Source: Ferruginibacter sp. (GTDB lineage: Bacteria > Bacteroidota > Bacteroidia > Chitinophagales > Chitinophagaceae). From it: a stretch of 64,000 nucleotides of DNA. This document shows positions 5,826 through 24,535 of the stretch, in pieces. The notes under the pieces are model-generated. The model did no database searches. It had not been told where the DNA came from and was given only the letters and a program-made list of their open reading frames with translations. The stretch's first letter is position 1; each line of letters starts with the position of its first letter. The stretch spans positions 62,001 to 126,000 of the forward strand of contig NZ_JAQBNR010000019.1 in the NCBI RefSeq assembly GCF_028288465.1, in the 5' to 3' direction. The translations under genes were made by a program, and so were the position numbers.

Positions 5826-5871
5826 AAATAGTAGTTGCATTTTTTATAAGTGAAGAAAAAAACAAAGTTTG

Positions 5872-8121
5872 ATGAGGATAAAATTTACTGGCTTAATTCT
5901 TTTAACATGGTGTTTAAAAACTGCCTGCGCACAAATAACTGCACATACTCCAACAGCAGCCAAAAGCAATAGGAAGGAAGGATTTTTCCAGGAATACCAT
6001 GAGGCATATCCGATCGGAAAGACCAGCGCTGAAAATAACGTCCGGAGTATTGCCGTGGATAAATCATCCAATGTTTTTATAACTACTGAAGCAGGTGTTT
6101 TTGAAAAATCCAGTGGCGCAAATACATGGACAGAGCTTCCATTTCAGGAGGAAGATAAAGGCCCTGCTTATGCCGTAGCCACTGATGGCAATGGCACGTT
6201 GTGGATTGGCAACTGGAACGGCGTTTTTACATTTCAACATAATCTGCTCACCAAAATGCCCGGCACAACAGGGCCAGTATCCCTGATTTGTGTAGCCAAA
6301 GAAGGGGTGTATGCACTCGGACCTCAAGGCGTTTGGTTGAATGCAGGCAATCAGTTTCTTCAAAAAAATTATCCTGTGGCCCGCTCCGTGAGGGGTGTTG
6401 TGTCAGATGGTAAAGCCGGCTTGTGGATTACCAGCGATGCAGGCCTTTACCATGTAACGGAAAAAGCAACTCATCATTTTTATAAAACAGATATTTTGTT
6501 AAGCGCAGAACTGAAAGGGCTGGCGTTTGATGAGAAAGAAAGTCTATGGATTACCGGGCTGGGAGGCGTTTCTGTTATCAGCAATGGCAAACGGCAAACT
6601 GCAATTACGCCAGCCAATGGCTGCCCGTCCATTTATACGAGTTGTGTAAAGCAGTCTCCTGACAAGGTGATGTGGATAGGTACAAAGGTTGGCGTAATTC
6701 GTTTTTATCCCGGCGGCAAACACTCTCTTTTATTCAGCCGCCGCTGGCTGATAAATGACCAGGTAAATGACCTTGTTTTTGACCAAGAAGGAAGTGCGTG
6801 GATCGCCACAACCAACGGTGTAAGCGTTATAAAAAAAAGATGGATAACACTTGCCCAAAAGGAGGATTATTTTTATGGCGTTCAAATGGCAAGGCATATC
6901 AGGGAACCATGGATATCGGGCCAGTGCCGCATGGCAGTAGCCGGCGATACTGCTCATTGTTCGCCTGAAGATGATGACAATGACGGGGAATACACAGGCA
7001 ACTATTTAGCCATGGAGTCATTTCGGTTTGCAGTTACCAAAAGTGAAGATGCAAGAGAAAAAGCAAAAAAGGCATTTCATTTTTTAAAAGAATTAAAGGA
7101 CATCACCGGCGGCGACGGTTACTTTGCCCGGACGATGGTGCCCATTGGCTGGGCTGCAGAAGTGCATGACACGAACCGCTTGTATACGGCAAGAGAAAGG
7201 GCAGAAGAACTGGTGAATGAACCCAGGTTTAAACCGGTTGAAACCCGCTGGCATAAATCAGCCGACGGGCGATGGTTATGGAAAGGCGATGCCAGCAGCG
7301 ACGAATGGTGCGGCCATATGATGGGGTACTATTTTTATTATCAACTGGCGGCCACTGAAGAAGAGAAAGCCTTGGTACGACAGCATGTAGCGTCACTTGT
7401 TGATCATTTAATTGCGCACAACTATACCATGATGGATACAGATGGAACGCATACCCGATGGGGCGTGTGGTCGCCTGCATTATTGAACAGAGATCCTGAA
7501 TGGCAACTGGATAGAAGTGAGAATTCAATGGAGTTGCTGGCATTTTTGAAGCTGGCTTATTATTGTACAAATGACGAAAAATATCAGCAGCATTATCAGC
7601 AGCTGATCAGTAAAGAACACTACCTGGAGAATATGGCTGCTTTGACAGAGCAGAACCCTGCATGGTTTATTTATTTTGATGTTACGATGCAGGCTTATTT
7701 ATTTCCAATATTAATTCGTTGCGAAAATGACCAGCGGCTGCGGGCTTTTTATCAGCAGCTGATGGACAAATGGATGGAACAACGGAAGGGTGATCATAAC
7801 CCGCTGATCAATTTTTTATACTGTTATGCCCGTGATAAAAAAGCAGAGCAGCAAGCATCCCTTGATTTTTTGATTAATACACCGCTTGATCTCAGGGACT
7901 GGCATATTGATCATACCAAAAGAGAAGATATTCATATGGTACATACCCCGGTGTTAAATGAATTACAGGTAAGTGAATTGCCACCGCCGGAAATCAGAAA
8001 CACGGTGCGCTGGGACAACAACCCCTGGTCAGCAACAGGCGGATCAGATATGGTGGAGCGTGAGCCGGTGTTTTGGCTGTACCCTTACTGGATGGGCAGG
8101 TATCTCAACATGATTGATTAA
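5872..8121 (+). CDS. two-component-regulator-type beta-propeller fused to C-terminal alpha-helical (enzyme-like) domain, copy 1
   Basis: N-terminal repeats (LWIGNWNGVFTF, LWITSDAGLYHV, MWIGTKVGVIRF, AWIATTNGVSVI); C-terminal domain with EDDDNDGEYTGNYLAMESFRFAVTKS, SSDEWCGHM and WLYPYWMGRYL; no kinase or DNA-binding region. Track uses TTG 5869; ATG at 5872. Confidence 0.8.
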   Translation: MRIKFTGLILLTWCLKTACAQITAHTPTAAKSNRKEGFFQEYHEAYPIGKTSAENNVRSIAVDKSSNVFITTEAGVFEKSSGANTWTELPFQEEDKGPAYAVATDGNGTLWIGNWNGVFTFQHNLLTKMPGTTGPVSLICVAKEGVYALGPQGVWLNAGNQFLQKNYPVARSVRGVVSDGKAGLWITSDAGLYHVTEKATHHFYKTDILLSAELKGLAFDEKESLWITGLGGVSVISNGKRQTAITPANGCPSIYTSCVKQSPDKVMWIGTKVGVIRFYPGGKHSLLFSRRWLINDQVNDLVFDQEGSAWIATTNGVSVIKKRWITLAQKEDYFYGVQMARHIREPWISGQCRMAVAGDTAHCSPEDDDNDGEYTGNYLAMESFRFAVTKSEDAREKAKKAFHFLKELKDITGGDGYFARTMVPIGWAAEVHDTNRLYTARERAEELVNEPRFKPVETRWHKSADGRWLWKGDASSDEWCGHMMGYYFYYQLAATEEEKALVRQHVASLVDHLIAHNYTMMDTDGTHTRWGVWSPALLNRDPEWQLDRSENSMELLAFLKLAYYCTNDEKYQQHYQQLISKEHYLENMAALTEQNPAWFIYFDVTMQAYLFPILIRCENDQRLRAFYQQLMDKWMEQRKGDHNPLINFLYCYARDKKAEQQASLDFLINTPLDLRDWHIDHTKREDIHMVHTPVLNELQVSELPPPEIRNTVRWDNNPWSATGGSDMVEREPVFWLYPYWMGRYLNMID

Positions 8122-8141
8122 TTTTTAAGGATAAAATAATA

Positions 8142-10439
8142 ATGATGATTAAAAGAAAGATTGGTTTTTTGTTGCTTGCAGGTTTATTTTTTAATGTGTT
8201 GAAGATGGGTGCTACAGATGGCGGTGGCTTACCCGTTCCTCCAGTATTTAAGGACACAGCCTCGTTGCAGGCTTATAGTATAAAATATACGCCCGATGGG
8301 ATGAAAGATGCAGGCAATATTGTTTTCAAAAAAGTATTTAGCGATCGCAATGGAGTTGTATTGATTCAATCTTCACGAGGACTGTTAAAAAGATCCGGCG
8401 GCCAGTTTTTGTATCCTGGTCAGCTGGTGCCTGATGTATCCTATCTGCCTATCGTTGACAAGAAAATAAGCAGCCTTGGCCTGTATCAAAACCAATTTGT
8501 ATTTGCCGACGATAAGGCCATCTTAAGCAATGCCTGGGCAGGGAAGCTATACAGCCTTCATACCATGCCCGATGTTACATTATTGAGTGGCGGAGACGAT
8601 TTTTCCTTTTTAATTTCCAACGGTACTTCTGTACAATACATAAAGGATTCAAAACTGTTGTTTGAATGGAAAAGCGAAGAAAAACTGGTTGATATTTTAT
8701 TTGATAAAAAGAGCAACCTGTTCTGGCTTTTGACAGCAAAGAGCATTAGTGCTTTTAACCCTGGCGATAAAAAAGTATATCCTAAATACACGGGGGATGG
8801 GTTAACCTGTTTCGGTCTTGCAGGCAATATCAATGAAATATTGGTTGGAACACACAATGGCTATTTTAAATTGAATGGTGGTACCGGAAAGAAGTCAGCA
8901 GAAATAAACAACGCATTGCCTTGCCGCGATTTAACCGTAATAAAAAACGTTGACAATCGAATTTGGTTTGGCTCTGTTAACGGCGCATTTACGCAGGAAC
9001 CGGATGGTAAATTTAAATACTATGCTTCAAAACGCTGGCTGCCCGGTAATAGTGTTAACGATATTGCAGCGGGCAGCAATCATTCGGTATTGGTATTAAC
9101 AAGCAAGGGCCTGGGAGAAATACATTTTGAGCCAATGACACTGCATGATAAAGCGATGTATTATGAGCAGCAGGTGCGTGACAGGCATATCCGCCATGGT
9201 TTCAATGCTACTATTACAAGAATGAAAAATGGTAATGTGAATACTGGTTCACTGGAAGATTCAGACAATGATGGATTGTGGACCTGCATGTACCTGGGAG
9301 GCGAAGTATTTCGGTATGCGGCCACCAAGTCGCCGGAAGCACTGGATAATTGCCGGGAATCACTCGATGCAATTGAGCGGTTGTACACGGTGACTAAAAT
9401 CAAAGGATTTCCTGCCCGTTCTTTTGAAAGAAGAGGATATGCAGTGGCAGATACACAGGTGTGGAAGCACGCGGAAGATCCGGAATGGGACTGGAAATCT
9501 ACCACCAGCAGCGACGAAGCCATTGGGCATATGTTTGTTTTTGGCGCCATAGCAGAATTAATTGATGACCCTGCAATGAAGGCCAAAGCCATCCGGTTAA
9601 TGGATGGCCTGATGCAGCATATTGTTGACCACCAGTTTTACATGATCGACTGGAACGGCGAGCCGACCCGTTGGGGGAGATGGAACCCGGAATATGTAAA
9701 TGCAATGCCAAAAAACGTGGGTGACCGGAAGATTACTTCTTCCAATATTGTGTCGATGTTACAAACGGCCTATCATTTTACCGGCAAAAAAATCTTTAAA
9801 GAAAAAGCGCTGGAACTGATGAATAAATATGGTTACCTGGAAAACCTGATGCGGCCGATGAAAGAAATTGGTCTTGCTCCCGGCGATGCGGGTGACCTGG
9901 CTAAACTTCTTTCAGATGGCTGGAACCATTCAGATGATGAAATGTATTTTTTGGGTTACTGGGGTTTATACCGGTATGCGTTAAATGACACGCTCAAAGC
10001 TAAATTTAAAGCATCTATCCTGGATCACTGGCAAATTGAACGGCCGGAGAAAGAAGCCGCCTGGGATATTTTTACCGCCATCACCGGCGTAAAACAATTT
10101 GACCTGGATGAAGCAACCTGGTATCTGCAAAAATATCCGCTTGACATGATTGAATGGAAAGTAACCAACAGTGAAAGAAAAGACGTTGTATTTATTCCAC
10201 AAAATTTCCGCAATCAAACAATTAAAGAAGTGTTGCCACCGGATGAATTACCGATTAACCGGCACAACTCCAACCGGTTTGATTTGGATGGAGGTGATGA
10301 CAATGGAATCACAGAATACAGTGCGGGAGATATCTGGTTATTACCATACTGGATGGGCCGCTACCTAAAAATAATCAGTGCGCCGGTTAACAACGTTCAT
10401 GCCGCCGCAGGGCCGATGAATAAAGGAGTTGGCCGTTAG
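8142..10439 (+). CDS. beta-propeller fused to C-terminal alpha-helical (enzyme-like) domain, copy 2 (tandem paralogue)
   Basis: Same architecture and collinear motifs as 5872-8121 (EDSDNDGLWTCMYLGGEVFRYAATKS, TSSDEAIGHM, WLLPYWMGRYL). Confidence 0.8.
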   Translation: MMIKRKIGFLLLAGLFFNVLKMGATDGGGLPVPPVFKDTASLQAYSIKYTPDGMKDAGNIVFKKVFSDRNGVVLIQSSRGLLKRSGGQFLYPGQLVPDVSYLPIVDKKISSLGLYQNQFVFADDKAILSNAWAGKLYSLHTMPDVTLLSGGDDFSFLISNGTSVQYIKDSKLLFEWKSEEKLVDILFDKKSNLFWLLTAKSISAFNPGDKKVYPKYTGDGLTCFGLAGNINEILVGTHNGYFKLNGGTGKKSAEINNALPCRDLTVIKNVDNRIWFGSVNGAFTQEPDGKFKYYASKRWLPGNSVNDIAAGSNHSVLVLTSKGLGEIHFEPMTLHDKAMYYEQQVRDRHIRHGFNATITRMKNGNVNTGSLEDSDNDGLWTCMYLGGEVFRYAATKSPEALDNCRESLDAIERLYTVTKIKGFPARSFERRGYAVADTQVWKHAEDPEWDWKSTTSSDEAIGHMFVFGAIAELIDDPAMKAKAIRLMDGLMQHIVDHQFYMIDWNGEPTRWGRWNPEYVNAMPKNVGDRKITSSNIVSMLQTAYHFTGKKIFKEKALELMNKYGYLENLMRPMKEIGLAPGDAGDLAKLLSDGWNHSDDEMYFLGYWGLYRYALNDTLKAKFKASILDHWQIERPEKEAAWDIFTAITGVKQFDLDEATWYLQKYPLDMIEWKVTNSERKDVVFIPQNFRNQTIKEVLPPDELPINRHNSNRFDLDGGDDNGITEYSAGDIWLLPYWMGRYLKIISAPVNNVHAAAGPMNKGVGR

Positions 10440-11966: not shown

Positions 11967-12563
11967 ATGACACAAGAATGCGATAAGGCATTGTTAAAAC
12001 AAGTCTCAGAAGGCGATCAAACAGCTTTTAAACAATTGTTTAAAATTCACAGGGATGCTATTTATTCTATAGCTTTTACTTTTGCGAAATCGGTTGAACT
12101 GTCTGAGGAAATTGTACAGGATGTATTTTTAACGATATGGCTCAGGAGGGCCAGTTTAAATGACATCCAAAATTTTAAGGCGTATCTTTTTGTTATAACA
12201 CGAAACCATGTGTATCATGTTTTAAAGCAAGTCGCCCAAAATTATACAACTACCTTAGTGCCCGTTGAAGATCATTTAATTGCGGATAATAACACTATTG
12301 ATCTTGTAATAGAAAAAGAATATAGTTTATTGTTAAAAAGGGCAATTGCCAGGTTGCCAAATCAGCAGCGGGAAGTATATACGCTCATGAGGGATCATGG
12401 TTTAAAACGCAATGAAGTGGCCTGCCAGCTTAATTTACAGCCTGAAACTGTTAAGTTTCATCTTGCACAAGCCATGAAAAATATCCGCTCCTTTTGTATG
12501 CTCCACCTCAACTCGTTTATGTTGTTTTTTGTCTGCATACATAAGTATATCCAAATTTTTTAA
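11967..12563 (+). CDS. RNA polymerase sigma-70 factor, ECF subfamily
   Basis: Region 2 (FKIHRDAIYSIAFTFAKSVELSEEIVQDVFLTIWLRR) and region 4 (LPNQQREVYTLMRDHGLKRNEVACQLNLQPETVKFHLAQAMKNIR). Confidence 0.93.
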   Translation: MTQECDKALLKQVSEGDQTAFKQLFKIHRDAIYSIAFTFAKSVELSEEIVQDVFLTIWLRRASLNDIQNFKAYLFVITRNHVYHVLKQVAQNYTTTLVPVEDHLIADNNTIDLVIEKEYSLLLKRAIARLPNQQREVYTLMRDHGLKRNEVACQLNLQPETVKFHLAQAMKNIRSFCMLHLNSFMLFFVCIHKYIQIF

Positions 12564-12652: not shown

Positions 12653-13849
12653 ATGTCAGTATTGCGTTTAGAATATTTATTGGATTGCTATATAAAAAAT
12701 AAATGCAGCGGGCAGGAAGAGGAAGAATTGATGGCTATACTGGCCGATCCCGAAAGCGAAGTATTCGTTCATGATGTTATCGACCGTTTAATGCAGCAGT
12801 CTGCTGGTGAAAAACAGTTATCGGATAGCGCTGCGGCCAGCATTTTGAAAACTATTTTAAAAGATGGTGGCGATGCAGCTATTCCTGTAAAAAAAAATGA
12901 AACAGTTTTTTCATTTTGGATGCGTTTGGCTGCCTCGGTTTTGATTTTACTTGTTGGTGCGTATTTTATTTTTGAAAAGAATGAGCGCACCATCGGAAAT
13001 GCGGAAGATAAAAAGCAAGTGGCCAGATTACCTGAAAAACCGGCACCCATTTTACCCGGGCGAAACAGGGCAATACTTACTACTGCAGATGGCAAGTCGA
13101 TTATATTGGATAGTATGCAAAACGGACAGCTTGCCAGGCAGGGGACTACCAATATACAAAAGCTGGGTGGTTTATTAATTTATAAGGCACCTGCATCTTT
13201 TAACGACGGTACACAGATTACTTACAATACACTTTCTACACCGCGGGGAGGACAATACCAGGTTATATTGTCGGACGGAACCAGGGTTTGGCTGAATGCC
13301 GCTTCCGAAATCCGCTATCCTACCGTATTTTCTGGTAACGTGCGTGAGGTAACCTTAACCGGGGAGGCTTATTTTGAAGTGGCAAAAAATAAAGCAAAGC
13401 CTTTCCAGGTAAAGGCGGGCGCCATGAAGATTGCAGTATTGGGTACCCACTTTAATGTGAATGCATATGAGGATGAAGCTGAAACAAAAACAAGCTTGCT
13501 GGAAGGCAGCGTACAAATAAGCCAGGGTAACCTTTCGGGCTTGCTGAAGCCGGGGCAGCAGGCAGTGATACAAAATAAAAGTAACCACATTAAAACAGGC
13601 AATGTTGATTTAACGGAGGTAGTGGCATGGAAGAATGGACTTTTTCGGTTTGAGGGAGCAGATATTAAAACAATCATGCGGGAAATAGGACGCTGGTATG
13701 ATGTGGAAATTGAGTATGCGGGCAAAGTACCCAACCATAGGTTTGTAGGAAAAATAAACAGGAACGTTGAACTGTCGGAAGTATTGAGAATACTGGAATT
13801 GAGCAACGTCAAGTTTTTGGTTGCAGGAAAAAAAATCATTGTGCTGTAA
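12653..13849 (+). CDS. FecR-family anti-sigma factor / sigma regulator
   Basis: Single TM after a short cytoplasmic domain; FecR core (TPRGGQYQVILSDGTRVWLNAASEIRYPTVFSGNVREVTLTGEAYFEVAKN). Confidence 0.93.
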   Translation: MSVLRLEYLLDCYIKNKCSGQEEEELMAILADPESEVFVHDVIDRLMQQSAGEKQLSDSAAASILKTILKDGGDAAIPVKKNETVFSFWMRLAASVLILLVGAYFIFEKNERTIGNAEDKKQVARLPEKPAPILPGRNRAILTTADGKSIILDSMQNGQLARQGTTNIQKLGGLLIYKAPASFNDGTQITYNTLSTPRGGQYQVILSDGTRVWLNAASEIRYPTVFSGNVREVTLTGEAYFEVAKNKAKPFQVKAGAMKIAVLGTHFNVNAYEDEAETKTSLLEGSVQISQGNLSGLLKPGQQAVIQNKSNHIKTGNVDLTEVVAWKNGLFRFEGADIKTIMREIGRWYDVEIEYAGKVPNHRFVGKINRNVELSEVLRILELSNVKFLVAGKKIIVL

Positions 13850-13855
13850 ACATCC

Positions 13856-13876
13856 ACCCGGTTATACTCACCGGGT
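13856..13876 (+). other. hairpin immediately after fecR stop (ACCCGGT-tatactc-ACCGGGT)
   Basis: Perfect 7-bp stem, 7-nt loop, no T tract. Confidence 0.5.
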
Positions 13877-13960
13877 AATCAAAATTAATTTCAGGATAAT
13901 TTATTAATGTTTTAATAGAATGGGTTGCATATACCCTTTTAATACATCTTTCTTAATGGC

Positions 13961-13993
13961 AAAAAAGCCAGCAATGTTCGTTGCATTGCTGGC
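13961..13993 (-). terminator. Rho-independent terminator on the minus strand between fecR and susC
   Basis: RC reads GCCAGCAATG-CAACGAA-CATTGCTGGC-TTTTTT: perfect 10-bp stem followed by U6. Confidence 0.85.
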
Positions 13994-14040
13994 GAATTAT
14001 GGCTATAAAACTGTCGCTCAAACAATTTTCTTAACCAAAA
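13961..14040 (-). ncRNA. predicted cis-antisense small RNA (about 80 nt) opposite the susC 5' leader
   Basis: Complete minus-strand promoter (14046-14077) followed by intrinsic terminator (13961-13993); no coding ORF of note; all neighbouring genes on plus strand. Confidence 0.5.
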
Positions 14041-14045
14041 CAAGT

Positions 14046-14077
14046 CAAAATTATGATTTTAACCGTCGCTTGCCAAA
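14046..14077 (-). promoter_or_regulatory. Bacteroidetes-type promoter on the minus strand, TTTG-N20-TAATTTTG
   Basis: RC of 14074-14077 is TTTG; RC of 14046-14053 is TAATTTTG; 20-bp spacer. Confidence 0.6.
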
Positions 14078-14121
14078 GCAAAAATGGCACGAAAGCCCTA
14101 AAGGCCAAAATGTTGATGATT

Positions 14122-17100
14122 ATGAAATTAACGATTCCCCTACTCTTATTTTTTACGTTCCAGGTAACAGCAAATGGTTATGCACAGAAGGTAACCATCG
14201 TAAAAAAAAATGTTTCTTTAACCGAAGTCTTTAAGTCAATTGAGCAACAAACAACGTTTTTGTTTTTCTTTGATAAGGACCTGGTAGAAGAAACCAATCC
14301 TATTGATGTTAAGATTAAAAATGCAACGCTGGATGAAGCCTTAAAAATTTGCCTTAAAGACCAGCCGCTTACTTATACGATTGTCAGTAACACCATCGTA
14401 ATTCAACACAAAGTGATTTCTGCGCCTGCGGTTGCTGCATTAAATGAAGTCATGGCTTTACCTCCGCCTGTTGAAATTCGCGGAAGGGTGGTAAACCAAA
14501 AGGGAGAACCTTTACAAAACGTTTCTGTGTTAATAGCAGGAACCAATATAGGTACCACGACAGATGCCGATGGTCATTTTGCGCTAAACGCACCTGACAA
14601 CAAAGGCATAGAGCTGGAAGTTTCCAATATCGGGTATCAAAAGAAAAGAGTAAAAGTAGGTAACCAAAAGGAGCTTACTATTGTGCTTGAAGAGGAAGTG
14701 TCGGGAATGAATGAAGTGGTGGTTATAGGATATGGTACTGCCAGGAAAAAAGACGTTACAGGCGCAGTATCAAATATCAACTCTAAAAGGCTTTTAGATA
14801 AACCAACTGTAAACGTTGGCCAGGCCTTACAAAATAAAATTGCAGGGGTTGATGTAAACAATATGGGTGGTGGTGTTCCGGGACAAAACCCATTGATCCG
14901 TATCCGTGGTACAAACTCTATTACGGCAGGCAACGACCCATTATATGTTGTTGATGGAGTAGTAGGCGTAGCAAATCCTTTAGCTACTTTAAACCCCAAT
15001 GATATCAATTCAATCGACGTTTTAAAAGATGCATCGGCCACTGCTATTTATGGTGCCCGCGGCGCAAACGGCGTTATCATTATTACTACCAAACGCGGCT
15101 CCAGTGGTAAACCGCAAATCACTATCAGCAGTACCGTATCTGAAAATACGTTGCAAAGGCATTTATATGCTTTAAATGCAGAGCAGTTGATGTACCTGTA
15201 TCTGCAATCAATGAACAACGCTACCAAATTCGGATCGGTAGTACCGGCAAATGATTTTCGTGGCACAACCACAGGTAGCACCAGTTTTTCTGAAATGCCC
15301 TGGTTGTTTGAACAGGTTCCGGCGGGAAACTATGCCATACCATTGGTTGGCAGGGATGGCAAAAGCTATGCACCAAAATATGATACCAATTGGGAAGACC
15401 TGATGTTCGCCAACTCAACGTCTCAAAACCATTATGTAGCAATCCGTGGTGGCAATGAAGTTGCTAAATTCTCAGTTTCATTGGGAGCAACCGACGAGCG
15501 GGGCCTGATGAAGAAGTCTTACTTTAAACGCCTCACTGGTAGAATTGCCGGTGATATCAAAGCATTAAAATGGCTTACGTTATCAACCTCAATAGGCTTT
15601 AACAAAAGCAGGGCAACCGGCGATGATGGTATTACCCGTTCTGCTACAGAAGTATGGTCTATTTTACCGGTACAATATCCGCAGGATCCTTCACTTGGAA
15701 TATACGCCGGTCGCTGGGGAACCAACTTTGATTTTAAAACTGGTGAGCAATGGTACAATGTAGTATTCAGAAGATCACAGATCTATCAGCAAAATAATAT
15801 CGGCCAGGTAACAGGTAGTTTTACTTCGGTTGCGCAAATAACAAAAGACCTGAGCTTTAAGAGTGATTTCTCGATCGACTATAACAATTATAAAAACAAT
15901 AGTTACAGCGGAAAATTATATGGAGGTGATGGTAGTGCTTCTATAAACGCAAGCCAAACTTACTTCTGGCAAAATGAAAACTATTTTAACTACAATAAAA
16001 AGATTGGTAAAAATCATATGCTGAGTGCAATTTTAGGGCTTTCCTGGTCCAAAAATTCTTACCAGAATATGAATACTTCCAACTCTGTATTCTTTTCCAA
16101 CTTCTTTGGGTACTCCAATTTGGGTGCTGGTGCAGCAGCCCGTCCCGGCTCCGGCAGCAGCGATGGCAACAACACATTGAATTCTTATTTCTCCAGGATC
16201 AATTACACATACAAAGACAAGTACGTGCTTACTGTAACGGGTCGTGAAGATGGTTCATCCCGTTTTGGAGCAAACAACAAATATGGCTTCTTTCCATCTG
16301 CAGGGGTGGCCTGGAGAGCATCACAGGAAAATTTCATGAAGAATGTAGATGCGATCTCAAACCTGAAAGTCAGGGCAAGTATCGGTCGTACGGGTAACCA
16401 GGAAATTGGTAGCTATGTTACGCAACCATTCATCAGTACAGCTAACGTTGTATTAAATAACGCTACTCAAATCGGCCTTTTCCCAAGCTCGGTTGCTAAC
16501 CCCGATTTGAAATGGGAAACAACAACCCAAAAAGATGTAGGTGTTGAATTGGGACTTTTTCACGATCGCCTGAATATAGGGGTTGATTATTACGATAAAT
16601 TAACCAGCAACATGTTGCTGAATGTACCATTGCCTTTATCAACCACAACCGGTTCTGTAATTGAGAATTATGGTAAAGTTCAAAACAGGGGATGGGAATT
16701 TACGGTGAATACATTGAACATTTCCACAAAGGATTTTAAATGGAATACGGATATCACCGTAGCCGCCAACCGAAACAAAATTGTACAATTAGGCCCTACA
16801 GGAGCGCCCATTTACAGCCAGACAGGTGCAGGTAATGGTACCTCTGTATTTATGATTGGACAACCTATTGGTGAATTTTTTGGACTAACCCGCTTAGGCA
16901 CATATAGCACGCAGGAAGCATCATTAGCAGCCCGCTATGGTTTAAGGCCAGGCGACCTGAAATTTTTGGACAAGAATAACGATGGCAAAATTGATTTGCT
17001 GACAGATGGCAGTATAATGGGAAATGCATTTCCTGATTGGGTGATTGGATTTCATAACGCTGTTAACTATAAAAGCTTTGATGCCGGTCTTGATATACAA

Positions 17101-17538
17101 ATTATCCAGGGCGTTAAAAAGGCATTTGTACATGAATCTGCAGAAGATCGCCAGTTGGTTTCCGGTGGTTTAAATTCAACGTTAACGGCTTGGCGGCCAG
17201 ATGCACAAAATTCCATGGTTGCCCAGTTGCGGCCAGGTAATGGTGGTGCTTATTACCAGTCGTTCCCAGATACACATATGATATACGATGGTTCTTTCAT
17301 CAGGGGTGCAAACGCCACTCTCGGATATACCTTATCTGATAAATTGGTGACCAGGTGGCACATGCAGAGAATCAGGATTTACCTGAGCGCAGTTAATTTC
17401 TTCCTTATAACGAAGGCCGCGGGCTACGACCCACAGGGCAGTTCACTTGATAAAAATATTTCGACGGTACCCAATACTGATAAATACCAGTATCCTACAC
17501 CATCGGTTTATTCTTTCGGCCTGAACGTTAGTTTATAA
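14122..17538 (+). CDS. SusC/RagA-family TonB-linked outer membrane protein with STN domain
   Basis: Signal peptide MKLTIPLLLFFTFQVTANGYAQ, STN domain, carboxypeptidase-like repeat, plug VVVIGYGTARKKDVTGAVS; track start 14053 is less likely than internal ATG 14122. Confidence 0.93.
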   Translation: MKLTIPLLLFFTFQVTANGYAQKVTIVKKNVSLTEVFKSIEQQTTFLFFFDKDLVEETNPIDVKIKNATLDEALKICLKDQPLTYTIVSNTIVIQHKVISAPAVAALNEVMALPPPVEIRGRVVNQKGEPLQNVSVLIAGTNIGTTTDADGHFALNAPDNKGIELEVSNIGYQKKRVKVGNQKELTIVLEEEVSGMNEVVVIGYGTARKKDVTGAVSNINSKRLLDKPTVNVGQALQNKIAGVDVNNMGGGVPGQNPLIRIRGTNSITAGNDPLYVVDGVVGVANPLATLNPNDINSIDVLKDASATAIYGARGANGVIIITTKRGSSGKPQITISSTVSENTLQRHLYALNAEQLMYLYLQSMNNATKFGSVVPANDFRGTTTGSTSFSEMPWLFEQVPAGNYAIPLVGRDGKSYAPKYDTNWEDLMFANSTSQNHYVAIRGGNEVAKFSVSLGATDERGLMKKSYFKRLTGRIAGDIKALKWLTLSTSIGFNKSRATGDDGITRSATEVWSILPVQYPQDPSLGIYAGRWGTNFDFKTGEQWYNVVFRRSQIYQQNNIGQVTGSFTSVAQITKDLSFKSDFSIDYNNYKNNSYSGKLYGGDGSASINASQTYFWQNENYFNYNKKIGKNHMLSAILGLSWSKNSYQNMNTSNSVFFSNFFGYSNLGAGAAARPGSGSSDGNNTLNSYFSRINYTYKDKYVLTVTGREDGSSRFGANNKYGFFPSAGVAWRASQENFMKNVDAISNLKVRASIGRTGNQEIGSYVTQPFISTANVVLNNATQIGLFPSSVANPDLKWETTTQKDVGVELGLFHDRLNIGVDYYDKLTSNMLLNVPLPLSTTTGSVIENYGKVQNRGWEFTVNTLNISTKDFKWNTDITVAANRNKIVQLGPTGAPIYSQTGAGNGTSVFMIGQPIGEFFGLTRLGTYSTQEASLAARYGLRPGDLKFLDKNNDGKIDLLTDGSIMGNAFPDWVIGFHNAVNYKSFDAGLDIQIIQGVKKAFVHESAEDRQLVSGGLNSTLTAWRPDAQNSMVAQLRPGNGGAYYQSFPDTHMIYDGSFIRGANATLGYTLSDKLVTRWHMQRIRIYLSAVNFFLITKAAGYDPQGSSLDKNISTVPNTDKYQYPTPSVYSFGLNVSL

Positions 17539-17572: not shown

Positions 17573-19228
17573 ATGAAATTTAATATAAAGAAAAGAAATA
17601 AGGGAGTTGTACAAAACACATTGCTGTTACTGGCGCTTGTAATCATGCTAGGTAGTTGTACCAAATTCCTGAAAGAAAATCCAACCGCTAACCTTACTTC
17701 AGACTATACTTTTACTACAGCGGCTGAAGGTACGGCCCTGGTGGTAGGCGGCTACAGAGCTTTATCTACTTATACCGGTGCTGCCGGCGACTATGGTAAC
17801 TATTTACCTTCCACATTGGAATACTGGACAGGGCTTGCATGGTCGTCTGACTCCCATCCGATGGTTAATAAATTTCAAACCAACCAACTTGCGGGCAGTA
17901 CGCTTTCTGATTTTGACAATTTCTGGAACAACAATTACCAGGGTGTTAAAGACTGTAATAATGCCATCGCAAAAATACCGGGCATCATTGAGTGGACACC
18001 TGCCGATAAGTCAAACTACATGGGGCAGGTACGCACGCTCAGGGCGCTGTATTATTTTAACCTGGTACGTTATTATGGTGATGTTGTAATGGATACAGCG
18101 CTGAGTACATTCGCAGAGTCTCAGCAACCTCGGGTATCGCTCAAAACCATTTATGACGAAATCATTATTCCTGATCTGGAGTTCGCTGTTAGCAGTAGTT
18201 TGGCAGATGCGCCTAGTTCAGGTGGCTATGTCAGTAAACTGGTTGCCAGGGCAATTTTGGCAGATGTTTATCTTACCTGCGCCGGTTATCCTTACCAGGA
18301 AGTAGCAACAGATCCTGCTAAACCATGGTGTACGGCCGGATCATTCTCCCAAACCGCTTACCCTGTCAGCACGCCAAGTGCCACAAGCTTTTTACAAAAA
18401 GCAGCCGAGCAGTTGAATTTATTATATGGCAGGTATTCCATGGTATCAACCTATCGTGACCTGCATAATACTTCTTTAAATAATAAAGGAGAATCAATAT
18501 TTCAAATACAATATTTATCAGGTGTAAATGAAATGACAGGCTTTATGGGATCATTGCTTCCGCCGGCCCTGCACGCAGCATCACTTACCGAATATGGTAC
18601 ACTAATTCCAACAATTGGCTATTATAATTCATACGCGCCCGGTGATTTACGCACGCAGGAAAGGCAAATGTTTTATACAAAGGATAATGTAGCTACGCAA
18701 TATGATGCAACCAATCCTCCCGTAAGTTTTGATCAGCCTTATGTTTTTAAATATTATGATTCAGCAGCCTTTAAAACCTCCGGCGGTCATAGCGGTTTAA
18801 ATTTTACCCTGTACCGCTATTCGGATATTTTGCTGATGCTGACAGAAGTAAACTGGACCTTAAGGCAAAATGGAATATCTGTGTCGGATGATGATGTGCT
18901 GAAAGGGATCAATGCCGTAAGAGCCAGGGCACAACTTCCTGCATACCGTATTGGTGATATCAACCTGCTTTCCATTTTTAGTGAAAGAGCATGGGAGCTG
19001 GTGTTCGAAAATAAAATGATCTGGGATCAGCGCCGTACCCGTAAATGTTTGATAGATGGTGTTGGAGCCTTTTCTGGTATTGAAAATTTTGTTGGTCACC
19101 AGCCGGTCACCTTCAATTTTAAATTTTCTGTTATGAATTTACTGTCACCGATTTCTCAGGCTGAAATTGCCAACAACGCAAAATGCTTACAGAATTTCAG
19201 CTACCTGCCAAAACAGGCTGGCCAGTAA
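17573..19228 (+). CDS. SusD/RagB-family nutrient uptake outer membrane lipoprotein
   Basis: Lipobox VIMLGSCTKFLKENPT, SusD-like architecture, follows SusC. Confidence 0.93.
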   Translation: MKFNIKKRNKGVVQNTLLLLALVIMLGSCTKFLKENPTANLTSDYTFTTAAEGTALVVGGYRALSTYTGAAGDYGNYLPSTLEYWTGLAWSSDSHPMVNKFQTNQLAGSTLSDFDNFWNNNYQGVKDCNNAIAKIPGIIEWTPADKSNYMGQVRTLRALYYFNLVRYYGDVVMDTALSTFAESQQPRVSLKTIYDEIIIPDLEFAVSSSLADAPSSGGYVSKLVARAILADVYLTCAGYPYQEVATDPAKPWCTAGSFSQTAYPVSTPSATSFLQKAAEQLNLLYGRYSMVSTYRDLHNTSLNNKGESIFQIQYLSGVNEMTGFMGSLLPPALHAASLTEYGTLIPTIGYYNSYAPGDLRTQERQMFYTKDNVATQYDATNPPVSFDQPYVFKYYDSAAFKTSGGHSGLNFTLYRYSDILLMLTEVNWTLRQNGISVSDDDVLKGINAVRARAQLPAYRIGDINLLSIFSERAWELVFENKMIWDQRRTRKCLIDGVGAFSGIENFVGHQPVTFNFKFSVMNLLSPISQAEIANNAKCLQNFSYLPKQAGQ

Positions 19229-20568: not shown

Positions 20569-22305
20569 ATGGGAGATGTACAAATCAAAAAATCATCAGA
20601 AGTATATGATGTCATTATCGTAGGCTCCGGTGCAGGTGGCGGCATGGCAGGCTATGTACTGGCCAATGCCGGTATCAAAGTTTTAATGCTCGAAGCGGGT
20701 CCGTTTTTCGACCCTGCCAAACAATCGCAGCAAATGAAATGGCCGTATGAATCGCCGCGGCGGGGAGCTTCCACCACGCGGGCCTTTGGCGATTTTGATG
20801 CTGCGTACGGTGGCTGGCAAATAGAAGGCGAACCCTATACCACCAAAGACAAAACAGAATTCAGTTGGTTCAGGTCGCGTATGCTGGGCGGTAAAACCAA
20901 TCACTGGGGAAGAATTTCTTTGCGCATGGGACCGCTCGATTTTCAGCCAACTGACGGACTTACCGAACGTTGGCCAATTACATACGACGAAGTAAAACCT
21001 TTCTATGATAAGGTAGACCGCATGATTGGCGTGTACGGCACCAATGAAGGATTGGAGAATGATCCTGACGGCGTTTTTCTTCCTCCTCCAAAACCAAGGC
21101 TCAATGAAATATTTATAAAAAATGGCGCAGCTAAAGCGGGCGTAAAAGTAATTGCCGGACGAGGTTCTGTTTTAACAGAGGCACTGCCCGGCAATAAGGA
21201 CCGTGGCGCCTGTTTTTATTGCGGCCAGTGCGGCCGTAGTTGCAAAATCTATGGGGACTTTTCGGCGTCCTCATGTCTTGTAATTCCCGCCATTAAAACG
21301 GGTAATTTAAAAGTGATTACCAATGCCATGGTGCGCCAGGTACTGACCGGTAAAGACGGCCAGGCAACTGGCGTTTCTTATGTTGATAAAACAGACGGAC
21401 AGGAATACCAGCTGAATGGAAAGACAATTATCCTCGGTGCAAGTGCCTGCGAATCGGCCCGCATATTATTAAACTCGGCATCGGCGCAGCATCCGGGCGG
21501 CCTTGCCAACAGCAGTGGCGTAGTGGGTAAGTACCTGCACGATTCAACCGGTGCCAGCCTGGGAGGCTTTCTTCCCCAGTTGATGGACCGCAAACGTTAC
21601 AATGAGGATGGTGTGGGCAGTGTGCATATTTATTCTCCCTGGTGGCTTGATAATAAAAATGTTGATTTTCCCCGCGGTTATCATATAGAATATGGTGGTG
21701 GTATGCATATGCCTTCGTATGGCTTTGGCGGCGGCACCACAAAAATGAATGGTATGGTACCGGGCAGGGATGGCAAAACCAAAACCGGCGGAGGTTTTGG
21801 CGCTTCATTAAAAGATGATTACCGTCGCTTTTACGGAACGCAGGTGGGTATGGCTGGTCGTGGTACTGCCATTGCACGAAAAGAAAATTTGTGTGAGATT
21901 GATCCGAACGTGGTTGATAAATATGGTATACCGGTATTGCGTTTTAACTATACCTGGAGCAACGAAGAAATCAAGCAAGCCAAACACATGATTGATACTT
22001 TTCAGTCCATCATGCATGGTATGGGTGCTGTAATTACCTCAACTATACAGGGGCCGGAAACCAACTACGGACTGGAAGCACCAGGAAGAATCATTCATGA
22101 AGTAGGTACTATCCGTATGGGGGATGATCCTAAAACATCTGCTCTTAATAAATGGTGCCAGGCCCATGATTGCAAAAATTTATTTGTTGTAGATGCAGCC
22201 CCATTTGTACAGCAGGGAGATAAAAATGCTACCTGGACAATCCTCGCTTTATCTATGCGTACAGCTGAATATATTCTTGATCAAAGAAAGAAACAAAATA
22301 TTTAA
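20569..22305 (+). CDS. GMC-family FAD-dependent oxidoreductase (sugar/glycoside dehydrogenase-like large subunit)
   Basis: FAD-binding [41 protein letters not shown] cysteine cluster; C-terminal [33 protein letters not shown]. Confidence 0.9.
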
Positions 22306-22308
22306 ATT

Positions 22309-22941
22309 ATGAACAGAAGACAATCATTAAAAGCCCTCAGCATATCTACACTTACCGCCGGATTACTGATTGAATCCTGCAAAACAGATACGCCAAAGTC
22401 AGCCACTGTAGTCGATAACAATAACCTGGGCGATGTGGCAGGCCTGCAGGAGTTTGAAATAGAAAGATTAAAAAAACTATATGCGGCACCGGCATTTTTC
22501 AATGAACACGAAAAAAGTACTTTGATCGTACTGGCTGACCTGATCATTCCAAAAGACGCGGTATCTGGCAGCGCCTCCGATGCTAAAGTGGCTGACTTTA
22601 TTGAGTTTATTGTAAAAGATATTCCTGACCACCAGGTGCCCATGCGGGGGGGATTAAAATGGCTGGACCTGCAATGCCTGAATACCTATGGCCAACCATT
22701 TACCGGTTGTACGGCAGCACAGCAAACCGAACTGCTGGAACAAATTGCTTACCCCGGTAAAACAAAGCCGGAAATGCACCAGGGCGAGGTATTTTTTAAC
22801 CGCATGCGTGACCTTACCGCTTCTGGTTTTTATACAAGTGAAATCGGAATCAAAGACCTTGGCTATAAAGGCAATGCACCCGGTAAATGGGAAGGTGTTC
22901 CGAAAGACGTATTGCAGCAATACAATTTGAAGGATGAGTAA
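22309..22941 (+). CDS. gluconate 2-dehydrogenase subunit 3-family protein, Tat-like lipoprotein signal
   Basis: MNRRQSLKALSISTLTAGLLIESC signal, LIVLADLIIPKDAVSGSASDAKVADFIEFIV motif; follows GMC gene by 3 nt. Confidence 0.88.
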   Translation: MNRRQSLKALSISTLTAGLLIESCKTDTPKSATVVDNNNLGDVAGLQEFEIERLKKLYAAPAFFNEHEKSTLIVLADLIIPKDAVSGSASDAKVADFIEFIVKDIPDHQVPMRGGLKWLDLQCLNTYGQPFTGCTAAQQTELLEQIAYPGKTKPEMHQGEVFFNRMRDLTASGFYTSEIGIKDLGYKGNAPGKWEGVPKDVLQQYNLKDE

Positions 22942-23095
22942 AGAATGAGCATTTTAAAAAGTAGCGACCACCGGATAAATAAAGTATCAATAAAAAAGTA
23001 ACAAGGATAACATAGCTTTTCCAACGGGTACTGAAAGATTTGGGGTACAAATTGCCCCGGTATTATTAATTAAAAAAACTTCAAAAAATTACACC

Positions 23096-24535
23096 ATGAA
23101 AAAGGGTAAAAAGTCGGAAAATTCAAGGCGCAGTTTTATTAAAAATGCTGGGCTGGTATCTGCTGGTTTTATGATTGTACCAAGACATGTATTGGGAGGC
23201 AAAGGGTTTGTGGCCCCGAGCGATAAATTAAATATTGCAGCCATTGGCGCAGGAGGCAAAGGACATGACGATTTAAAGAATTTTTCAAAAAGTCCAAATG
23301 TTAACATCGTTGCATTATGCGATGTGGATGACCGCCGGTCGGCTGAATCAAGGAAAGAATATCCCAATGCGAAATATTACAAAGATTTCAGGGTAATGCT
23401 GGAGACAGAAAAAAATAATATTGATGCCTGTAATATTTCAACACCTGATAACATACACGCTGTAGCAACAATTGCGGCTATGCAATTGGGCAAACATGTA
23501 TACACGCAAAAGCCCCTCACCCATGATATTTTTGAAGCCCGTACACTGGCCAATGCGGCGGGGAAGTACAAAGTAATTACACAAATGGGCAACCAGGGCG
23601 GCTCCAGTGACGGTGTTCGCCAGGCCAAAGAAATGCACGATGCCAATTTATTAGGCGATGTGCATACCGTATATGTTTGGACCAACAGGCCGTTGTGGCC
23701 GCAAGGTTTACCTACGCCAACAGGTAGTTTTCCGGTGCCTAAAGAGGTGGATTGGGATCTTTGGCTGGGCCCTGCAAAATACATCGATTACAACCCTGCG
23801 TATATGCCCTGGAACTGGCGTGGCTGGAATGCCTTTGGTACGGGTGCCCTCGGTGACATGGCTTGCCACATGATGGACCCTGTATTTCGCATTCTGCCAA
23901 TTGATTTTCCTACCGAAGTAGAATGCAGTATTCCTAAAAGTTGGACGGTGGATGGTAAAGAAGCAAAATATCCTGATGGCTATCCGCCTGCTTCCGTAAT
24001 CCATTTAAAGTATCCCAGAAAAGACGGTAAGGGAGAAGTAAAGGTATCCTGGTTTGACGGCGGTATTATGCCACCCCTTCCCGATGAATTGCTGCCGGGT
24101 GAAACGTTTGGAGGCAATGATGGAGGCGCCATGTTTATCGGTGATAAAAGTAAAATGATTGTGGATTGCTATGGAGAAAATCCGCGGCTGTTACCATCTT
24201 CACTGATGAAGCAAACGGTAATGCCCGCGCAAACTATTGCGAGGGTACCCGAAGGACATTACCTGCAATGGGTAAACGCCTGTATGGCAGGGTATGGTAA
24301 AGCAAAAACCAGCTCACCATTTGAGTATGCCGGGCCTTTTACTGAAAGTATTTTAATCGGCAACCTGGCCATTAGAAGCTGGAACCTGGAAACGAAAAAT
24401 GCAAAAGGCAGAAGCGAATACCCGGGCAGAAAGAAATTGTTGTGGAATGCAAAAGAAATGAAAATCACGAATTTTGATGATGCCAACCAGTTTGTGAAAA
24501 GAGATTACCGCCAGGGATGGAGTTTGGGAATGTAA
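23096..24535 (+). CDS. Gfo/Idh/MocA-family oxidoreductase, Tat-exported
   Basis: Twin-arginine SRRSFIKNAGLVSAGFMIVP; KLNIAAIGAGGKGHDDLKNF; EKPLTH-type motif (TQKPLTHDIFEARTLANAA). Confidence 0.92.
   Translation: MKKGKKSENSRRSFIKNAGLVSAGFMIVPRHVLGGKGFVAPSDKLNIAAIGAGGKGHDDLKNFSKSPNVNIVALCDVDDRRSAESRKEYPNAKYYKDFRVMLETEKNNIDACNISTPDNIHAVATIAAMQLGKHVYTQKPLTHDIFEARTLANAAGKYKVITQMGNQGGSSDGVRQAKEMHDANLLGDVHTVYVWTNRPLWPQGLPTPTGSFPVPKEVDWDLWLGPAKYIDYNPAYMPWNWRGWNAFGTGALGDMACHMMDPVFRILPIDFPTEVECSIPKSWTVDGKEAKYPDGYPPASVIHLKYPRKDGKGEVKVSWFDGGIMPPLPDELLPGETFGGNDGGAMFIGDKSKMIVDCYGENPRLLPSSLMKQTVMPAQTIARVPEGHYLQWVNACMAGYGKAKTSSPFEYAGPFTESILIGNLAIRSWNLETKNAKGRSEYPGRKKLLWNAKEMKITNFDDANQFVKRDYRQGWSLGM

Follow-up and report, generated by a model that had tools for sequence, protein, structure and literature searches.

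The transporter gene susC of this Ferruginibacter-like genome lies directly behind the genes for an ECF sigma factor and a FecR anti-sigma factor, and the question raised by the locus is whether the junction between fecR and susC carries, in addition, a gene of its own that is read in the opposite direction. The first-pass annotation of the window (the whole 64-kb stretch of DNA analysed here, contig C76:62001-126000 of a genome of ~6.9 Mb) had claimed as much, namely a separately transcribed antisense RNA of ~80 nt, of the type of DonS of Bacteroides. We hold with good confidence that the fecR-susC junction carries a DonS-type cis-antisense small RNA gene, which most likely keeps susC off as long as the FecR/ECF-sigma pair is inactive.

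The fecR-susC locus and its predicted antisense RNA

The genes of the locus and the elements of the junction are listed in order, with the basis of each assignment in brackets.

11967-12563, plus strand: ECF sigma factor (Pfam Sigma70_r2, Sigma70_r4_2)
12653-13849, plus strand: FecR anti-sigma factor (Pfam FecR, FecR_C)
13956-13960, plus strand: P1, 5' arm (ATGGC) of an inverted repeat (plus-strand fold; complementarity)
13961-13966, minus strand: terminator U-tract, T6 (sequence; A-run at related junctions)
13967-13993, minus strand: H2, terminator hairpin, perfect 10 bp with a 7-nt loop (sequence; covariation; wobbles)
13961-14040, minus strand: predicted antisense small RNA, ~80 nt (promoter-terminator layout, fold, comparison)
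14000-14037, minus strand: H1, 5' hairpin, its basal stem made by the anti-TTAACC 5' end (fold; strand-specific complementarity)
14002-14006, plus strand: P1', 3' arm (GCTAT) of the inverted repeat (plus-strand fold; complementarity)
14046-14053, minus strand: -7 box TAATTTTG of the antisense promoter, overlapping the susC start codon (sequence)
14074-14077, minus strand: TTTG at a -33-like distance, with a 20-bp spacer to the -7 box, not conserved in relatives (sequence)
14053-17538, plus strand: SusC-type TonB-dependent transporter with STN domain, the presumed target (Pfam STN, Plug, TonB_dep_Rec)
17573-19228, plus strand: SusD-type lipoprotein (Pfam SusD_RagB)

The closest relative found is Ferruginibacter paludis (locus L040), whose FecR is 92% identical and in which the hairpin is kept. 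Downstream of the SusCD genes, at 20569-24532, lie a GMC oxidoreductase, a gluconate 2-dehydrogenase subunit 3 and a GFO/IDH/MocA oxidoreductase, a gene content that suggests the oxidation of sugars and not the hydrolysis of glycosides. Upstream of the sigma factor (5869-10439) two large proteins of 750 and 765 aa, alike in layout, succeed one another, the second having no Pfam match. The FecR-linked SusC bears an extra N-terminal ~20-25 residues ahead of its MKLT signal peptide (14053-14120), an extension present also in most fecR-linked susC genes of L040-L119, and the antisense promoter overlies its first codons. A second hairpin (ACCCGG..CCGGGT), which is not conserved in L040-L042, stands directly 3' of the fecR stop at 13850-13880.

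Direct reading bore out every base of the minus-strand arrangement that had been described, TTTG, 20 bp, TAATTTTG and a 10-bp hairpin with T6, as well as the placement of fecR and susC on the plus strand on either side, the susC start codon being the ATG at 14053-14055. On the plus strand the same letters read CAAA (14074-14077), CAAAATTA (14046-14053), GCCAGCAATG-ttcgttg-CATTGCTGGC (H2, 13967-13993) and A6 (13961-13966). No other site in 7 kb (12-19 kb of the window) is as strong a terminator candidate as H2 with its T6. We infer that an antisense RNA is actually transcribed from this promoter, and its exact 5' end, judged from the position of the -7 box, would lie near 14040. For the predicted RNA of 80 nt the fold consists of two hairpins and has an energy of -29.2 kcal/mol (z = -5.69), a value that none of 200 shuffles equalled. 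Its complementarity to the leader of the susC mRNA is perfect and ends ~14 nt ahead of the start codon.

Searches by similarity returned little. Rfam 15 gave no family at E <= 1 for the window stretch, and for six related loci only two matches, both to unrelated families at E > 1 and far below the gathering score. BLAST of the intergenic DNA yielded no match in plasmids and short weak matches only, in 2 of 98 relatives, because the element evolves too fast for a DNA search to find many of them. In its own genome the stretch 13950-14180 has no second copy beyond matches of <=39 nt.

The terminator hairpin and the promoter box in related loci

About 150 related sites from soil, freshwater and gut Bacteroidota were compared in all. 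The compared stretch runs from the fecR stop to susC and was taken from 80 fecR loci of other genomes (L040-L119), from four further fecR loci of the own genome and from the window; with one locus omitted whose stretch was too short, this gave 84 junctions, which form 45 sequence clusters. The element is conserved in the Ferruginibacter relatives and at junctions of Chitinophagaceae, Mucilaginibacter/Pedobacter, Flavobacterium and Dyadobacter/Larkinella. The sequence model R1 found only 5 of 40 phylum-wide junctions and is therefore lineage-bound, and an architecture test (box plus terminator) was used in its place for these junctions. The other R1 matches in the own genome were set aside as an ordinary intergenic terminator and matches inside coding sequence.

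A composite scan for TAnnTTTG followed 30-135 nt downstream by a U-tailed hairpin returned the 13961-14077 site as the single match on both strands of the 64-kb window, and across the 80 related loci (840 kb) it returned 55 matches at the fecR-susC junctions, which make up ~34 kb, as against 8 in all the rest of the strand sequence (~1.65 Mb). That a promoter-like string and a hairpin merely coincide here has a negligible probability: TAnnTTTG by itself is frequent, with 55 matches on both strands of the window, but the composite is unique in it and ~300-fold enriched at the homologous junctions, and the covariation of the hairpin and its conservation refute such a coincidence.

A weightier objection is that the hairpin is an element of the plus-strand susC leader, cis-regulatory or stabilising, and that the -7 box is a by-product of a translation start of the form CAAAnnTATG. 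This explanation of H2 was the one first favoured, on account of the leader position and of the P1 stem, and it was ruled out by the wobble test. A hairpin can be read on both strands, whereas its wobbles cannot, a G.U pair on one strand being an A.C mismatch on the other. Stem finding accordingly scored G.U and A.C alike, with no strand preference, and wobbles were counted once per cluster and position. On the plus strand the non-Watson-Crick pairs of the hairpin comprise 51 A.C as against 11 G.T (45 clusters, binomial p = 3e-7), an excess which indicates that H2 pairs as a minus-strand RNA, with G.U.

The surroundings of the hairpin point to the same strand. At most of the 84 junctions it stands 50-95 nt ahead of the susC ATG and is preceded on the plus strand by an A-run (median 6 of 8), the other side having no T-run (median 2 of 8 T); an intrinsic terminator of the minus strand would be laid out in just this way, with the A-run as its U-tract. 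The three nearest relatives have kept the hairpin, the A-run and the block that follows (alignment A1), and in more distant loci the sequence of the hairpin differs while the pairing is kept. Among 43 aligned minus-strand hairpins all 10 pairs have changes on both sides, 92.3% of pairing cells are paired as against 67.6% in shuffles, and the covariation is 0.771 as against 0.274 +- 0.022, a level reached by none of 500 shuffles and a signal abolished when the pair partners are slid. Against the DonS-type reading it must be said that the U-tract is broken in some lineages, such as Larkinella and Dyadobacter.

The promoter box is similarly confined. The minus-strand box TAnnTTTG, which reads CAAAnnTA on the plus strand, was counted between -25 and +12 relative to the start: 59 of 84 fecR-linked susC genes (36 of 45 clusters) have it, as against 6 of the 345 other gene starts in these loci, and a count on the opposite strand of the fecR-linked susC starts gives 1 of 84. 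Two observations favour its being a by-product of the susC start, namely that the box overlaps the ATG in 45 of 84 loci and that, in the own genome, 4 of 27 transporter genes without fecR also have it; an A-run hairpin was found at 0 of these 27. That origin was nevertheless rejected in view of the counts at other gene starts, of shifts in register and of the co-occurrence of box and terminator (Fisher p = 0.006 and 0.0002). Within the box, the variable positions are -3 and -2, with C at -7 and T at -1 being conserved, and 14 of 59 boxes stand in another register relative to the ATG, for example as CAAATGTA in Mucilaginibacter or 6 nt upstream in Flavobacterium. With hairpin and box taken together, the leader element is very unlikely to account for the site.

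The first-pass annotation had proposed to check whether promoter and terminator are conserved in related loci; the -7 box and the terminator are, whereas of the TTTG of the -33 region the relatives retain no more than a slight preference for T at -29 to -31, an observation that counts against the DonS-type reading, as does the absence of a consensus -7 box from 25 of 84 junctions, two of them in the own genome. Within the promoter it is thus the -7 box, and not the -33 TTTG, that the relatives conserve.

The 5' stem, the length of the predicted RNA and an inverted repeat

The predicted 5' end of the antisense RNA pairs with the segment just ahead of the terminator to form the stem of H1. Over 46 representatives this complementarity has z = 4.3 when minus-strand wobbles are allowed, as against 0.2 for the complement; within the seven nearest loci alone the covariation of the stem is weak. 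Since the stem starts a few nucleotides from the predicted 5' end, it provides independent support for that end. With ends predicted from sequence, the length of the RNA is 76-129 nt (median 93) in 56 loci, and published DonS-type RNAs are 78-128 nt long (PMC7366714). That a separate antisense RNA of ~80 nt is encoded here is consequently well supported by the -7 box, the covarying minus-strand terminator and the 5' stem, and the promoter box, the terminator, the strand, the structure and their conservation are established by the comparison of sequences.

A further element of the junction is the inverted repeat P1:P1', which encloses the A-run and the terminator hairpin. Its complementarity is real (z = 8.7 over 46 representatives) and is better with plus-strand than with minus-strand wobbles (z = 6.6 vs 3.6), which is a point in favour of a plus-strand leader element. 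Repeats of this kind occur also in L095, L052, L065, L079, L119 and others, strongly complementary within loci and differing between loci. Since the outer arm P1 lies beyond the terminator, the repeat is not part of the antisense RNA, which does not account for it, and to this extent it weighs against the DonS-type reading; it could be an element of the leader of the susC mRNA or of the sense promoter. In the antisense RNA it is the complement of P1' with which the 5' end pairs, and a switch that works through this shared segment is conceivable.

On this basis a broader proposal can be put forward tentatively. Across Bacteroidota, ECF-sigma/FecR/SusC loci might have as an old and regular fourth member an antisense RNA whose transcription begins at the susC start codon, handed down together with the other genes and diversified per locus. 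The segment P1' would be shared by three mutually exclusive stems, one formed with P1 in the leader of the mRNA, one with the region of the translation start and one, through its complement, within H1 of the antisense RNA, and leader and antisense RNA would thereby make up a matched two-state switch.

Two sites elsewhere in the own genome, on contigs C31 and C40 (L003:1494-1560 and L004:1515-1580), consist of GGTTAAGAAAA followed immediately by a GC hairpin and a T-run. Both contain GGTTAAG, a complement to the TTAACC found in susC leaders, and they could be trans-acting small RNAs or plain terminators.

Known antisense RNAs and the proposed mode of action

DonS-type RNAs are transcribed divergently to susC and lower its expression (PMC7366714), and 32 antisense RNAs associated with PULs have been listed in B. 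thetaiotaomicron, where both negative and positive correlations with the respective PUL occur (PMC10994844). The predicted RNA resembles DonS of Bacteroides fragilis and the PUL antisense RNAs of B. thetaiotaomicron in being cis-encoded, divergent to a susC homologue and of ~80-130 nt: it would lie on the strand opposite to susC of a SusCD locus, with a length in the known range, a predicted housekeeping promoter and an intrinsic terminator. This likeness is one of layout, length and position, and the loci themselves differ, the DonS-type ones having Bacteroides hosts and mucin-glycan enzymes whereas here the host is Ferruginibacter-like and the genes encode oxidoreductases. FopS and GibS of B. 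thetaiotaomicron are likewise small RNAs that act at the translation start region of susC mRNA, and FopS pairs through its 5' end (PMC11697453). They are, however, paralogous and trans-acting and mostly not opposite their targets, whereas the predicted RNA is opposite its target with full complementarity and, unlike the multicopy FopS family, is represented by the single copy of 13950-14180.

The same signature appears in the family from which such RNAs have been experimentally detected. The Bacteroidaceae sample consisted of genomes assigned by Mfa_like_1 matches and gene content, with many FecR genes, and provided 64 usable fecR-susC junctions, so that the agreement with the known RNAs is one at the level of the family. 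A minus-strand terminator is present at 17 of the 64 and a plus-strand one at 3, the box occurs at 8 of the 17 junctions with the terminator as against 2 of the 47 others (p = 0.0002), and the plus-strand wobbles of the hairpin are again of the A.C type (20, as against 2 G.T). Many Bacteroidaceae junctions lack such an element, a finding that counts against the DonS-type reading. On the whole, the assignment to the DonS type outside Bacteroides, which the first-pass annotation had proposed, is well supported by the range of lengths and by this shared signature.

The mode of action that we consider most likely, by analogy with DonS, is repression of susC when the locus is not induced. A housekeeping sigma factor would start minus-strand transcription at the TAnnTTTG box over the susC start codon, and the RNA polymerase would run back toward fecR to stop after ~80 nt at the intrinsic terminator in the susC leader. 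The resulting RNA would fold into H1, which includes its 5' end, and H2, the terminator, and would pair with that part of the susC leader which extends from the terminator to about -14. Such pairing may block translation or mark the susC mRNA for decay, and the transporter would thereby be kept off while the FecR/ECF-sigma pair is inactive.

Two other modes of action start from the same RNA. It might activate or stabilise the susC mRNA, for instance by preventing an inhibitory fold of the leader; positive correlations, which count against the repression reading, are on record for some PUL antisense RNAs of B. thetaiotaomicron (PMC10994844) and P1' could pair with P1 or with the translation start region, but DonS, the one tested example, has a negative effect (PMC7366714) and cis-antisense pairing over a leader most simply blocks translation, such that activation is quite unlikely. 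Alternatively, promoter and terminator may be real and the RNA functionless, the terminator fencing antisense transcription or the act of transcription disturbing the sense promoter. Many antisense start sites of B. thetaiotaomicron are indeed thought to be spurious (PMC7366714) and in flavobacteria antisense transcription has been called pervasive (PMC9723704); the selection on the H1 stem, and on box and terminator over very diverged loci, together with a length held at about 76-129 nt, argues against this possibility, to which we assign a low, though appreciable, probability.

The best reading of the compared sequences is then that the site is a real and selected feature, probably to be filed with the known class of PUL antisense RNAs, far outside Bacteroides. 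In the literature searched we found no description of a phylum-wide reach of such RNAs: the described antisense RNAs opposite susC come from gut Bacteroides, and the present one falls in no Rfam family. The comparison indicates that the same kind of RNA is present at most of the sampled ECF-sigma/FecR-controlled transporter genes of several further lineages. With coordinates, strand, box, terminator and structure specified, the notion that antisense RNA may constitute a general layer of control of nutrient transporters in the phylum becomes directly testable.
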